From assembly GCA_937928085.1 (NCBI GenBank), contig CALFVU010000006.1, positions 1 through 64,000 on the forward strand: DNA of 64,000 nucleotides, read 5' to 3'. Position numbers and translations under genes: made by a program. Source of the stretch: an uncultured bacterium. GTDB taxonomy: Bacteria > Spirochaetota > Leptospiria > Leptospirales > Leptonemataceae. Positions 8,565 to 14,847 of the stretch are shown in pieces (position 1 is the first letter of the stretch; every line of letters begins with the position of its first letter). The notes beneath the pieces are model-generated. The model worked only from the letters and a program-made list of their open reading frames with translations, was not told the origin of the DNA and ran no database searches.

Positions 8565-9009
8565 ATGAAAAAATCTATTTTGATATTTTTTTTGAATATT
8601 TTGATTTGGGTTGCTTTTTTTGATTGTAAAAAAGAAGAGCAACAACAAACAATAGAACAAAAAAAATCTTCTTAATAATCTCGAAGTAGGACCTATTCAG
8701 TCAAAAATAGAGTTGGGAGCTATTGATAAAAATCTTGTTCAAAAGGGGCAAAAAATTTTTAACGAAAAATGTACAGCATGTCATAAAATCGAAGAAAGAT
8801 ACGTTGGACCTGCTCTTAAGGATATTACGAAAAGGCGAACTCCAGAATGGATTATGAATATGATTCTTGAACCGGTAAAAATGACTCAGGAAGATCCAGA
8901 TGCGAAAGCTCTTTTGGAAGAATATCTAACCCAAATGACAAATCAAAATGTATCTTTAGAAGATGCTAGGGCAATCCTTGAATATTTTAGAGAAATTGAT
9001 AGTAAATAA
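8565..9009 (+). pseudogene. Lipoprotein mono-heme cytochrome c of the nos cluster (frameshifted in an A8 tract)
   Basis: Two frames together make one ~147-aa protein. The first (8565-8675, behind SD AAAGGAGA) encodes a lipoprotein signal with lipobox AFFDC and a Q-rich linker, then stops. The second, open from just before the break, encodes a cytochrome c with heme motif CTACH, the RRTPEWIMNMI helix and a distal Met in MTNQN. Removing one A from the run of eight at 8659-8666 joins them as EQKNLLNNLEVGPIQ. This small cytochrome typically precedes nosZ in Bacteroidetes-type clusters and is thought to donate electrons to NosZ. The ORF-track start at 8713 (TTG) has no SD and would leave the cytochrome unexported. 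Confidence 0.8.
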
Positions 9010-9042: not shown

Positions 9043-10961
9043 ATGAAACCTCAAAACAAATTCATTTCATTGGTTTTGGTTTTGACCAGTGTTTTAAGCA
9101 TTGGTTGTGGTGGTAAAGGTGGTGGCAAAGTCGGTTTGGCCTCTGATGCTGCTCAAAAAGTTTATGTGGCGCCTGGAGATAAAGACGAGGTGTATCTTTT
9201 TACTTCTGGTGGGTTTAGTGGACAAGTGGGTGTACATGGAATTCCTTCTGGAAGACTTTTTAAAATTATCCCAGTATTTTCTGTTTGGCCAGAAAATGGA
9301 TATGGCTTCGATGAAGAAACCAAAGGTATGTTGATGACTTCTCATGGTTTTATTCCTTGGGATGATAGTCATCATCCTGAAGCTTCTATGACTAAAGGAG
9401 AACAAGATGGGCGATGGTTATTTATTAATGGAAATAATACACCAAGAATTGCAAGAATTAGTTTATCTACTTTCGAAACAGTAGAAATCATCGAGATACC
9501 TAACAGTGCGGGTAACCATGCATCACCTTTTCTAACTTGGAACACAGAATATTTAATGGCAGCAACAAGGTTTTCTGTTCCCATTCCCCAAAGAGATATT
9601 CCTATCGAAAGCGCCAAAGAGGGCAAGTTTAATGGAACTATCACTATGGTAGCTGTGGATAAAAATACAGGAGCAATGAGTATCAAAGTTCAAGTTTTGG
9701 TACCGGGTTTTAATTACGATTTATCTGCATGTGGAAAGAATCAATCCGGTGATTGGTGTTTTTTTTCTATGTATAACACAGAACAAGCTTATGATCTTTT
9801 AGAAATCGAAGCATCTAAAAATGACAAAGATTATATTTTAGCTTTTAATTGGAAAAAAACAGAAGAATGTGTAAATCAGGGTAAGGGAAAAGAGGTTCCA
9901 AGTGTCTATTACAGAAATTATAAACCTCATGCGAAGCCAGCGATTTCTGAAAGAAAAACAACAGTAAGAATGATGGAACCTAAAGATTGTCCAGGGATAA
10001 TGTATTTTTTACCCACTCCCAAAAGTCCCCATGGGGTGGATGTGGATGATACGGGAGAATATATCGTAGGTGGTGGAAAATTAGCAACAGTAATACCAGT
10101 ACATTCTTTTAGTAAATTTGTAAAAGTTAAAGATGATCCTCAAAATCATATAATGAAAATTATGGATATTCCAGTTTAAAATACGAATCAACTTTATATG
10201 GCGAAGTGGATAAACCTTGTTTGGGACCACTACATACACAGTTTGATGGAAAAGGTAGAGCTTATACTTCTTGTTTTGTTTCTTCTGAAATCGTACAGTG
10301 GGATATAAAAAATTTAAAAGTTTTATCTCGTCTACCCGCATATTATAGTATAGGACATTTAAGTGTAGTGGGGGGACATTCTACTAAACCTTATGGAAAA
10401 TATGTAGTTGCTCTTAACAAAATTACAAAAGATCGATACCTACCAACAGGTATGGAATTAGTACAAAGTGCTCAATTATATGATATTAGCGTAGATCCTC
10501 CTCAATTATTGTTAGATTTTCCTACAACTGGAGAACCCCATTATGCGGAGATGATTCCAGCGAGTTTGCTTCTTAAAAACAAAATCCAACAGATTCTTCC
10601 ATTAAATGAAAATGATCATCCATATGCAACGAAAAGCGAAAAAGAAGCAAGAGTAGAAAGAAAAGGCAAAGAAGTACATGTTTATATGACAGCAATTCGT
10701 TCTCATTTTAAACCATCAAAAGTAGAAGTCAAGTTAGGAGATATAGTGTATTTTCATGTAACTAATCTGGAACAAGATTTTGATATACCTCATGGTTTTG
10801 CGATTTATGGTGCACCTCTACCTAATATTTTGATTATGCCCGGACAAACAAAAACTTTGGTTTGGGAAGCTAAAAAAATTGGAGTGTTTCCATTCTATTG
10901 TACTGATTTTTGTTCTGCATTGCATCAAGAAATGCAACATTATATTCGGGTATCACCTTGA
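9043..10961 (+). pseudogene. nosZ: Nitrous-oxide reductase, clade II (Sec/lipoprotein type), with a one-base frameshift
   Basis: NosZ reduces N2O to N2 in the periplasm. The first frame (9043-10179) has an N-terminal hydrophobic stretch with lipobox LSIGC and CuZ-region motifs DDSHHPE, GNHASPF and SPHGVDV. The second (from 10206) has PCLGPLHTQFD, GEPHYAE and the C-terminal CuA site CTDFCSALHQEM. The break lies at GTTTAAAATAC: adding one base gives DIPV-(L)-KYES, which fits the clade II consensus at that spot as I recall it, and restores about 639 aa, normal for the family. All expected copper-ligand motifs are present. The gene may be inactivated, slippage-decoded or mis-sequenced. SD is AGGAG. 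Confidence 0.9.
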
Positions 10962-11045: not shown

Positions 11046-11648
11046 ATGTTTTCCTTATTAAATCAAAAATTGAATCAAACAAATCGTATACTAGTTTTAA
11101 TAGTGGCTTTTTTAATGTTTTTAGTATATTTTTTGCCTTTATGGGTAATAAACTTAACTGCTCCTCAATACCCCGAAACTTTAGGTATGTATATTTATGT
11201 TAATGATATTAAAGGTAAAACACCATATGATCTACAAAATATTAATATTTTAAATCATTATATTGGAATGCAAAAAATTGCAGCAGATTCTATTCCAGAA
11301 TTACAGTATATGCCTTATATTTTAGGTTATATGATTTTTGGAGCTGTGGTTACTTTTTTTTTTAATAGAGTTTTTATGGTTTTTTTAGGAGTTCTAAATA
11401 CGGTTTTAGTGGGGATCGCAGGAATCTATGATTTTTGGCGATGGGAATATAATTACGGTCATAATTTAGATCCGAATGCCCCTATACAGGTACCCGGCAT
11501 GAGTTATCAACCCCCTTTGATTGGTTGTAAAGAACTTTTAAATATTAATGCTTGTAGTTGGCCCTCTATAGGTGCTTTGTTGTTGTTTGTTGTATTGGGT
11601 ATATTGTTTTGGATATTATATACAGAATTCAATACTCAAAATCGCTAG
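11046..11648 (+). CDS. Nos-cluster membrane protein (NosB-like, tentative)
   Basis: A 200-aa integral membrane protein with about four hydrophobic segments (near residues 14-35, 95-112, 118-138 and 175-197) and a polar loop after the first. It sits between nosZ and nosL, where clade II clusters usually have a small conserved membrane protein often called NosB. The start is ATG 11046 behind SD TTGGAGG; the ORF track starts at a TTG inside that SD. Function is not established, though assembly or electron transfer to NosZ has been suggested for such proteins. The symbol is withheld because homology was not checked. Confidence 0.7.
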   Translation: MFSLLNQKLNQTNRILVLIVAFLMFLVYFLPLWVINLTAPQYPETLGMYIYVNDIKGKTPYDLQNINILNHYIGMQKIAADSIPELQYMPYILGYMIFGAVVTFFFNRVFMVFLGVLNTVLVGIAGIYDFWRWEYNYGHNLDPNAPIQVPGMSYQPPLIGCKELLNINACSWPSIGALLLFVVLGILFWILYTEFNTQNR

Positions 11649-11659
11649 GAGGACTATGT

Positions 11660-12130
11660 ATGAAAAAACTATTACCATTTATTATCTTTTTTTTCTTTTT
11701 TTCCTGTACGCCAAAAGCACCTGTAGATATACAAGCTGGAATGGAAGAATGCAGTTTATGTAAAATGAAAATTGTAGATTTAAAGTTCAATGCTCAGCTT
11801 CAAACTACAAAAGGAAAAATTCATCATTTTGATAGTATTGAATGTTTGGTAAAATGGATTGAGCAAAATAAAGATATAGAAATAAAAAATGCATGGGTTA
11901 AAGACTATCCTTCAGGTAAGTGGGTAGAATATAAAAAAGCTTTTTATTTAGTGTCGAAAAACCTGCCTTCTCCGATGGGTGCTTATCTTTCAAGTTATGA
12001 AACTTTAGAAGAAGCGCAAAAGATACAGAAAGAAAAAGATGGTCAAATTCACGAATATAAAGATTTAAGCAATTATTTAAAAAGTTTAAACAAAGATGAA
12101 AAACATCATCATCACCATCATCATCATTAA
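11660..12130 (+). CDS. nosL: Copper chaperone lipoprotein NosL with C-terminal octahistidine
   Basis: A 156-aa outer-leaflet or periplasmic lipoprotein (lipobox FFFSC) that delivers Cu(I) for NosZ maturation. The NosL core is visible: ECSLCKMKIVD with the CxxCKM copper site, then HHFDSIECLVKW, and the aromatic region NAWVKDYPSGKWV. The start is ATG 11660 behind AGGAGG with a 7-base spacer, not the earlier track start. The C terminus is unusual, ending in eight consecutive His codons (CAT/CAC) before TAA. Those same bases encode the signal-peptide core of the overlapping nosD gene. Confidence 0.92.
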   Translation: MKKLLPFIIFFFFFSCTPKAPVDIQAGMEECSLCKMKIVDLKFNAQLQTTKGKIHHFDSIECLVKWIEQNKDIEIKNAWVKDYPSGKWVEYKKAFYLVSKNLPSPMGAYLSSYETLEEAQKIQKEKDGQIHEYKDLSNYLKSLNKDEKHHHHHHHH

Positions 12131-13355
12131 TTTGCTTACACCGATTTATGCAGAGACTTTAAGAGTTTGCACAGGAGCTTGCAAGTATCGAAATTTGCAA
12201 GCTGCTATCGATCAAGCTCCTCCTTATTCCAATATTTTTGTGGAAGAGGGGATCTATATTTTAAGCGAAGAAATCGTTATATCGAAACCTATAAAATTAA
12301 TTGGAAAAGAAAAAAAATCTATCCTTGATGGTAGTAAAATAAAAAATGTAATTAAAATTTCACAGACTTATGATGTAGAAATTACAGGTTTTACAATCAA
12401 AAATAGTGGTTACAGTGATATTCAAGAATTTGCAGGAATTTATATAGAGAAATCGAGCAACTGTAGAATTTATAATAATAGTTTGTTAGATAATACATAC
12501 GGTATTTATTTAGCTTATGTCCAAAAATGTATCATAGAAAACAATCAAATTATTTCAAATGCTATCAACGAAGTTCAAAGTGGTAATGGAATCCATTTAT
12601 GGTATAGCTACGAAAATCAACTAAAAAATAATTTCGTACGAAAACATCGAGATGGATTTTATTTTGAATATTCAGAAAATTTAGTTGTAGAAAATAATAT
12701 AAGTGTTGAGAATATTCGGTATGGAATTCATTTTATGTTTTGTCATAGGGCAAAAATTTTTAATAATCTATTTTTAAAGAATGAAGCGGGGATTGCTCTA
12801 ATGTATTCAAATCGATTAGAACTCAATGCGAATCAAATTCAATATGCGTGGGGAAGAGGATTAAAAGGTTTACTTCTAAAAGATATCAATGATAGCGAAA
12901 TTGTACGAAATATTTTTTCCAATAATACTACTGCATTTTATACTGATAATTCGAATCGAAATAAAATTTATAAAAATCAATTTTTAAGCAATGGTATTGC
13001 TATGGAAATTTTAGGCAATTCATACGAAAATGAAATTTTTAATAATTATTTCGAAAATAATCTTTTTGATGTAGCGACGAATTCGAGAAGTAATCCAAAT
13101 CTTTTTAAAGAAAATTATTGGGATAAATATAAAGGCTACGATCTAAATAAAGATGGATATGGAGATATTTTTTATAGACCTATTACTTTATTTAGTTTTT
13201 GGGTAAGCAAGTATCCTGATATTTTTATTTTACTTCGTTCTCCAATGATTGATTTTTTGGAGACTTTAGAAAAAGTCTTTCCTGTTGTAATTCCCTCCCA
13301 ATTAAAGGACGAAAAGCCTGTTTTGAATAAAAAGATCATTTTAGATACATTATGA
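12096..13355 (+). CDS. nosD: Periplasmic copper-processing protein NosD
   Basis: A 419-aa periplasmic right-handed beta-helix protein that works with the NosFY ABC transporter in CuZ maturation. It has a short signal peptide (MKNIIITIIIINLLTPIYA, cleavage before ETLRV). Parallel beta-helix coils follow from about residue 40 to 330, with repeats such as NSLLDNTYGIYLAY and NNFVRKHRDGFYFEYS. A conserved KENYWDKYKGYDLNKDGYGD segment follows the helix. The start overlaps nosL by 35 bases and there is no strong SD, suggesting coupling. The TGA stop overlaps the nosF ATG. Confidence 0.92.
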   Translation: MKNIIITIIIINLLTPIYAETLRVCTGACKYRNLQAAIDQAPPYSNIFVEEGIYILSEEIVISKPIKLIGKEKKSILDGSKIKNVIKISQTYDVEITGFTIKNSGYSDIQEFAGIYIEKSSNCRIYNNSLLDNTYGIYLAYVQKCIIENNQIISNAINEVQSGNGIHLWYSYENQLKNNFVRKHRDGFYFEYSENLVVENNISVENIRYGIHFMFCHRAKIFNNLFLKNEAGIALMYSNRLELNANQIQYAWGRGLKGLLLKDINDSEIVRNIFSNNTTAFYTDNSNRNKIYKNQFLSNGIAMEILGNSYENEIFNNYFENNLFDVATNSRSNPNLFKENYWDKYKGYDLNKDGYGDIFYRPITLFSFWVSKYPDIFILLRSPMIDFLETLEKVFPVVIPSQLKDEKPVLNKKIILDTL

Positions 13356-14062
13356 TTCGAATAAAAAATTTAAACAAAATTTTTAAAAAACAAAAAGTTC
13401 TAAAAAACATCAATCTTGAAATTCCAAAAAATGAAATTGTTTGTTTTTTAGGTCCGAATGGTTCTGGAAAGACAACACTAATCAAATGTCTTTTAGGTTT
13501 GGTGATTCCAGATCCAGATTCTAAACTCGAGTACGAAAATAAAGAAATCGAATTTAATTTAGCAAAGTATTTTCAAGTTGGATATGTGCCTCAGATGCCT
13601 TTATTTCCAAGAAATGTATTAGTAAAAGATTTAGTGGATTATTTAACAAATTTAGAAAATCATAATGAAGAAGTGAATCGTAATATCATTGAGCTCTTAG
13701 GTATTCATTCATTTTTTGATAAAAAAATATCTGAGCTTAGCGGAGGAATGAGGCAAAAACTGAATTTATTACAATGTTTTATCAAAGAAAGGGATATTTA
13801 TGTGTTGGATGAACCTACTGCAAGTTTAGATCCTTATCATAGCCATTTATTAAAAAAATTAATAAAAGAAAAAAAACAGACATCTTATGTGTTATTTATT
13901 ACTCATAATTTATCTGAAGTGGAAGAATTAGCAGACAAAATGGTAATTCTAATTGATGGACAGATAGTTCTAATAGAAAGTCCAAAAGAATTTATTCAAA
14001 ATCAAAATGCATTGAATTTAGAAGATGCATTAAGTAAAATTCATGAGTATATAAAAATATGA
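13352..14062 (+). CDS. nosF: ABC transporter ATPase NosF
   Basis: A 236-aa cytoplasmic ATPase energising NosY for NosD-dependent copper-site assembly. Walker A GPNGSGKTT is near residue 35, signature LSGGMRQK near 130, Walker B IYVLDEP near 151, and the switch His is in FITHN. It overlaps nosD by 4 bases (ATGA) and nosY by 4 bases (ATGA), so nosDFY is a tightly coupled unit. Confidence 0.92.
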   Translation: MIRIKNLNKIFKKQKVLKNINLEIPKNEIVCFLGPNGSGKTTLIKCLLGLVIPDPDSKLEYENKEIEFNLAKYFQVGYVPQMPLFPRNVLVKDLVDYLTNLENHNEEVNRNIIELLGIHSFFDKKISELSGGMRQKLNLLQCFIKERDIYVLDEPTASLDPYHSHLLKKLIKEKKQTSYVLFITHNLSEVEELADKMVILIDGQIVLIESPKEFIQNQNALNLEDALSKIHEYIKI

Positions 14063-14847
14063 TGTTAAAAAATTTAATCTTATTCGAAATTTTGGATTTA
14101 TTGAAAAGTAAATGGTTGTTTTTATATGCAATTGTGTTGTTTATCTTTCATTTTATCGTCATTTATTTTTCCGCTGGAACTACTGATGAAATTTTAGCAA
14201 CTATCACAAACTTTTATCTGCTAATTATTCCTTTGTATACAATGATTTTTAGTATTGTAAATTTATATGAGAATATTCATTTTCAAAGTTTAGTGATTGT
14301 AAGAGGAATTTCTCGAAATTCAATTTACAAAGGAAAGTTTTTAGGTCTATTTTTTGGTTTGTTATTTGGTTTTCTTTTTGGTATACTCCCCTTTTTTTTA
14401 TTTTTTATAAAGATACAAAATTTTTTTTATATTTTGTTTCTTTTAGTATTTTTTGGGATTTTGTTACATTTCATTTTTTTAGGGGTTGGATTTCTAATAT
14501 CCCAATTCAATTTTCGGTTAGAAATATCTTTAGGAGTATCTATCATTTTGTGGTTTTTTGGCTATATCATTTATGATAGTTTTATTTTTTTAATAGCTGT
14601 AAATTTTGGAGATTATCCATTAGAATCTATTCTTATAGTATTATTATTTATGAATCCTATGGATTTAATTAGAACAACTCTTTTTATACAAGGAGATCTG
14701 GCTATGTTGATGAGTTATAGTTCTGCGATTTATCTTCAGATTTTTGGATCTAAATGGGGAATTTTTACCGGTGTTTTATATTTATTATTTTTTGGTATGA
14801 TGATTTATTTTCTAGGTCAAAAAAAATTTTTTAGTAGAGATTTATAA
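14059..14847 (+). CDS. nosY: ABC-2 permease NosY
   Basis: A 262-aa inner-membrane protein with six membrane segments, partner of NosF and NosD. The conserved NosY segment before the last helix is present: FMNPMDLIRTTLF followed by DLAMLMSYSSAI and IFGSKWG. It is the last gene of the nos cluster. No nosR, nosC, nosG or nosH gene follows; the next feature is a tRNA on the other strand. Confidence 0.9.
   Translation: MMLKNLILFEILDLLKSKWLFLYAIVLFIFHFIVIYFSAGTTDEILATITNFYLLIIPLYTMIFSIVNLYENIHFQSLVIVRGISRNSIYKGKFLGLFFGLLFGFLFGILPFFLFFIKIQNFFYILFLLVFFGILLHFIFLGVGFLISQFNFRLEISLGVSIILWFFGYIIYDSFIFLIAVNFGDYPLESILIVLLFMNPMDLIRTTLFIQGDLAMLMSYSSAIYLQIFGSKWGIFTGVLYLLFFGMMIYFLGQKKFFSRDL

Follow-up and report, generated by a model that had tools for sequence, protein, structure and literature searches.

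The stretch of DNA analysed, called the window here, spans 64,000 nucleotides and carries a clade II nos operon, in which the genes for a cytochrome c, NosZ, a membrane protein, NosL, NosD, NosF and NosY follow one another. The gene order is identical in two congeners (G002 and G003) and in another member of the same family (G008). NosL supplies copper to the enzyme that breaks down the greenhouse gas N2O, nitrous oxide reductase; attomolar Cu(I) binding and a role in CuZ assembly count as traits of the NosL family. The features of the locus are collected in Table 1.

Table 1. Features of the nosL/nosD junction and its surroundings (positions are those of the window).
Feature	Position	Strand	Basis or remark
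nosZ, clade II (Sec) nitrous oxide reductase, split	9043..10961	+	TIGR04246 on both halves
Conserved membrane protein between nosZ and nosL	11046..11648	+	same place in G002, G003 and G008
AGGAGG, Shine-Dalgarno-like	11647..11652	+	7 nt 5' of the nosL start; read directly
nosL, predicted Cu(I)-chaperone lipoprotein, 156 aa, ends in His8	11660..12130	+	ATG at 11660; PF05573, E=4.7e-16
nosD, periplasmic beta-helix maturation protein of NosDFY, 419 aa	12096..13355	+	TIGR04247
nosL/nosD overlap, 35 nt, phase 1	12096..12130	+	nosD in frame +1 relative to nosL
Predicted NosD signal peptide, MKN-IIITIIII-NLLTPIYA	12096..12152	+	judged by eye; cleavage likely after IYA
(CAY)8 run	12104..12127	+	His8 in nosL; two 12-bp units differing in the last base
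Eight NosD codons (IIITIIII) on the same DNA as the His8 codons	12105..12128	+	read directly
nosF, ABC ATPase	13352..14062	+	PF00005; 4-nt overlap with nosD (ATGA)
nosY, NosDFY ABC permease by position	14059..14847	+	gene order in G002, G003 and G008; 4-nt overlap with nosF

Regarding the assignments, the NosL domain scores 59.7 bits against a PF05573 cut-off of 24, and its CSLCKM sequence corresponds to the clade II motif CXXCXM as defined in PMC6530538. In a comparison with 16 relatives, the lipidation cysteine C16 and the residues C31, C34 and M36 are invariant. NosD scores 395 bits on TIGR04247 (cut-off 300), matches the NosD structure of PDB 7o0y with E=1e-33 and is adjoined downstream by nosF and nosY, the latter having no Pfam match of its own. 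The membrane protein has no Pfam or NCBIfam match, and a hypothetical gene occupies the corresponding position in Hymenobacter and Tunicatimonas. nosZ is interrupted near 10175-10182, where a T/A run carries a one-base frame change, its two halves being 84% and 89% identical to the NosZ of the congeners, which is intact, as are the whole nos operons of G002 and G003. Upstream, the cytochrome c lipoprotein gene (8566-9009) has a frame change beside an A run near 8660-8675. Both frame changes may be sequencing errors, or they may reflect early decay or recent mutation.

The nosD gene begins inside the 3' end of nosL. An earlier start is impossible because the NosD frame is closed by a stop at 12087-12089, three codons before the ATG, and a later one, the TTG at 12132, was rejected since it would delete the signal peptide and since both congener NosD proteins also start inside nosL. 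The resulting N terminus, MKNIIITIIIINLLTPIYA, has a charged start, a hydrophobic core and an IYA end, as expected of a signal peptide; the core IIITIIII, identified by hydropathy only, peaks at 3.85.

The eight codons that end nosL before its TAA (12128-12130) read CAT three times, CAC once and CAT four times, giving His8. In the NosD frame, one base on, the same run reads ATC three times, ACC once, ATC three times and ATT, giving IIITIIII, where the last codon borrows the T that opens the nosL stop; the remaining frame would give SSSPSSSL. A single DNA repeat thus encodes both the histidine tail of NosL and the hydrophobic stretch of NosD. The first-pass annotation had claimed the His8 end, the one-base-shifted signal core and the membership of both products in one copper-delivery pathway; the run and its codons are exactly as it described, the core agrees by hydropathy, and the shared pathway is supported. 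Since CAY becomes Ile or Thr one base on, the locus is a clear small example of a single repeat that can be useful in two frames.

This run is exceptional for the genome. A pattern search of the 2.3 Mb genome found a single run of at least five CAY codons (reversed control, 0) and no second copy of CAYCAYCAYCAYCAY (reversed control, 0), and the arrangement of a start followed by CAY codons occurs in 1 of 61 genomes. In 264 kb of the genome (28% GC), the longest other histidine run has three residues and perfect trinucleotide repeats reach five units at most; the longest perfect stretch within the CAY run itself is four units. Codon usage, computed on the same 264 kb, disfavours the C that NosD has at each of these third positions, as ATC makes up 17.6% of Ile codons, ACC 11% of Thr and AAC 20% of Asn. 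Given the NosD amino acids and this codon usage, C at 8 of 8 third positions has a probability of about 6.5e-7, which excludes simple drift in codon choice; on its own, this probability cannot tell slippage from selection for histidine.

As described for 1,695 species, long phase-1 overlaps are kept because mutation to the common 4-nt or 1-nt overlap is not easy (PMC10666635). The overlaps found here and in relatives (35, 23, 17, 29, 20 and 14 nt) share phase 1, and nosL/nosD resembles the described operon overlaps in its phase, in joining co-directional genes of one pathway and in the retention of a long overlap. It differs from them in carrying a codon repeat that is meaningful in both frames and in lying, with 35 nt, far outside the typical termination-reinitiation window of -8 to +6 nt (PMC10666635). 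No Shine-Dalgarno-like site was seen on direct reading before nosD, nosF or nosY, which fits coupling to upstream translation, and termination-reinitiation across 35 nt would be unusual. The length of the overlap alone is unremarkable, as a few overlaps of 26-34 nt occur elsewhere in the window, a crude longest-frame gene list giving these lengths as upper bounds.

Three congeners (G001, G002 and G003) were compared, of which G002 and G003 supplied nos junctions, making three with the present genome. In G003, nosL ends in KDEEHHHN, overlaps nosD by 23 nt and is followed by a NosD beginning MKNTTIIKIVLIYFFF; in G002, it ends in KHEHHH (tail HEHHH), overlaps by 17 nt, and NosD begins MNIIIRSILYLLFF. 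No nos-type NosL was found in G001, whose weak PF05573 match is a regulator-like fusion. In that protein (locus L037, 1087-1716), which ends in LHSCCHPVRH, a NosL-like domain stands behind an N-terminal helix-turn-helix-like region, possibly a metal-sensing regulator.

Where residues of nosL, nosD and nosF are conserved between the three species, their third codon positions have reached, or nearly reached, the level expected at saturation (for nosD, 0.654 against 0.638, and 0.563 against 0.552). The third-position C's of NosD that create the NosL histidines are nevertheless all retained (8 of 8, 3 of 3 and 3 of 3), though C is rare at such positions. In addition, the differences between CAT and CAC are silent in NosL and change Ile to Thr in NosD, as seen in the T of IIITIIII and in the TT of G003. 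For three junctions, and with a test chosen after they had been seen, these sequence patterns suggest as the natural reading that purifying selection acts on the histidines and that the NosD residues follow.

Comparing repeat number with signal length, runs of 8, 3 and 3 units in the present genome and the two congeners accompany 25, 29 and 29 residues from the NosD start to its first cysteine. Although it has five more repeats, the present signal is therefore about four residues shorter than those in the relatives. In the present NosD, the eight-residue stretch of highest hydrophobicity falls inside the overlap, whereas in G003 and G002 it comes after the nosL stop codon; the run has taken the place of the old signal core instead of lengthening the signal. 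The first-pass annotation had proposed that slippage would alter histidine count and signal length together without breaking either frame. The preservation of both frames by 3-nt changes holds, whereas the link between the two lengths is not borne out by these values.

Outside the genus, histidine tails and long overlaps are found independently of each other. NosL of G008 ends in MHDHGNH without any overlap, nosD beginning about 95-116 nt downstream, and NosL of P. stutzeri (PDB 7osf/7znq) has a native His/Met-rich tail with SMQHGGMHDHAPNGAHNAHA. Short His or His/Met ends are seen in P. mandelii (GMAGHSMH), Pseudoalteromonas (MPAHH) and R. capsulatus (HDHAKMQGGM), and long Met/His-rich ends in Paenibacillus. 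In Hymenobacter and Gemmatirosa, NosL has little histidine at its end and the genes overlap by 29 and 20 nt, the choice of start being uncertain. Because tails without long overlaps and overlaps without tails both occur, the two features are separable. The tail is absent from NosL of Paracoccus, Shinella, Cereibacter and others, and the NosL proteins of G040, G034, G029, G010, G006 and G019 have no histidine at their ends, so the tail is not conserved across NosL. The last eight residues hold 8, 4, 3, 3, 2 or 0-1 histidines among 16 relatives, and in 13 proteins from outside the genus they are enriched in histidine (9 against 3.8 expected, P=0.012). A NosL scan of genome contigs gave one match only, to a distant Bacteroidales relative, and a literature search on histidine-rich NosL found no papers. 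As the survey suggests, His/Met-rich C-terminal tails are a recurring but uneven feature of NosL.

The arrangement is real and unusual, while its ingredients (a variable histidine tail, a retained phase-1 overlap and the reading of CAY as Ile or Thr one base on) are known. Comparison with relatives suggests that common features were elaborated locally into the eightfold run and the shared core. The best explanation, held with moderate confidence, is that NosL carries a histidine-rich, metal-binding tail that expanded inside an old phase-1 overlap. The ancestor of the nos-bearing species of the genus would already have had a tail of about three histidines, which would have grown to eight here via slippage or one 12-bp duplication of CAY codons. 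With nosD starting in phase 1 within the 3' end of nosL, the overlap could not easily shrink to 4 nt or 1 nt, and a growing tail, whose CAY codons read as Ile or Thr in the NosD frame, would write a hydrophobic stretch into the signal peptide without harm. In the present lineage, this stretch may then have become the signal core, the older downstream core being shortened.

The tail would add loosely held metal sites to the core Cu(I) site (CXXCXM) and might help to collect or buffer copper before its hand-over to the NosDFY/NosZ assembly route, in the manner of UreE. UreE itself belongs to a family unrelated to NosL, handles nickel and is cytoplasmic. In the available part of the UreE account (PMC13044922), a core metal site is likewise combined with a C-terminal His-rich tail of variable length, and this tail varies among homologues, adds nickel capacity and is largely dispensable; that part describes no dual coding, in contrast to the present NosL tail. 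NosL, too, has a C-terminal His-rich tail that varies among homologues. Closer to the present protein, NosL of P. stutzeri (PDB 7osf, 7znq) and P. denitrificans (PMC6530538) share the NosL domain, the CXM-type copper site and the lipoprotein anchor, and the P. stutzeri protein is also His/Met-rich at its end; its tail is a mixture of His, Met, Gly and Ala, whereas here the tail is a pure His8 encoded on the same DNA as the nosD signal peptide. In NosL, Cu(I) is probably held by the Cys and Met of CXM; the best fit has one N/O ligand, and no histidine is absolutely conserved (PMC6530538). That the variable tail could supply this N/O ligand is speculation. By comparison with relatives, the histidines appear to be the conserved part of the arrangement and are probably metal-binding, and a natural His8 NosL would offer a convenient form for a direct test of the tail.

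A possible but unlikely alternative is that selection acted on the NosD signal only, ATC slippage having left NosL with a functionless His8 tail. The run is indeed a near-perfect repeat of two 12-bp units that slippage alone could make, Ile suits a signal core and many NosL proteins lack the tail. The demand for hydrophobicity, however, does not need ATC, which supplies only 18% of Ile codons here; the congeners have histidine tails with short runs, their NosD cores lying wholly or mostly after the nosL stop; and one of them has Thr-Thr at the NosD sites with the histidines kept. The by-product is further disfavoured because tails exist where no long overlap does, as in G008, P. stutzeri and Pseudoalteromonas, because little histidine accompanies the overlaps of Hymenobacter and Gemmatirosa, and because the His-making third-position C's persist amid saturated third positions. 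Of the two alternatives offered by the first-pass annotation for the tail, a possible metal-binding role is supported, and an origin as a by-product of the overlap is disfavoured. Relatives having neither overlap nor tail, the case it named as refuting, do occur at the distance of family to class (G006, G040), but within the genus none is seen among the species that carry nos genes.

It is quite improbable that the run drifted to its present length under relaxed constraint, in an operon dying with its broken nosZ and cytochrome c. The two frame changes speak for such a process, as does the apparent intactness of most other genes in the window (judged from the crude gene list), and the operon may in part be decaying or wrongly assembled, in which case the eight-unit length could be a neutral expansion. 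Yet nosL, nosD, nosF and nosY are intact, the nosZ halves remain close to the congener sequences, both breaks lie in or beside single-base runs, where sequencing errors are common, and the histidine tail is present in congeners with an intact nosZ.

Very improbable, too, is the proposal that poly-His codons serve as a ready-made signal core in the next frame, so that metal capacity and export of the partner evolve via one repeat whose number is jointly selected. An adaptive switch in which unit number jointly tunes histidine number and NosD export deserves hardly any credence: 3-nt changes in the run do keep both frames and unit number does vary between species, but signal length does not track the units, frame-switching is impossible and no perfect stretch runs beyond four units. 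There is equally little chance of an artefact, be it an assembly error or a cloned tag. In its favour, His8 resembles an affinity tag, and the genome is still in draft form, in 21 contigs. Against it, the run lies within the nos operon on a 349-kb contig, overlapping a conserved gene start, and the congeners share that start and a shorter histidine run at the same place; given this conserved context, a cloned tag or contamination was rejected.

C-terminal histidine runs were also sought in 392 genomes of the phylum, where most matches to a terminal His5 were chance frames of fewer than 60 residues and were set aside. Among the 30 listed loci that were read, the long proteins ending in at least five histidines are NosL, two DsbD_2 membrane proteins, a CbiX protein, a transporter for cation efflux and one membrane protein resembling thioredoxin. 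All of them are metal or envelope redox proteins, which speaks for the reading of the NosL tail as metal-binding, and no long His-ended protein other than NosL has a next gene overlapping its tail. The DsbD_2 proteins, the CbiX chelatase and the cation-efflux transporter (loci L107, L108, L109 and L116) end in five to seven histidines. The thioredoxin-like membrane protein ends in HGHHHHHHHH and comes from G001, the congener without a nos operon (locus L104, 919-1518, reverse complement). A secreted NosL-domain protein of locus L033 (1270-1797), a short locus in which no other nos gene was recognised, ends in GGHGDSHHGH.
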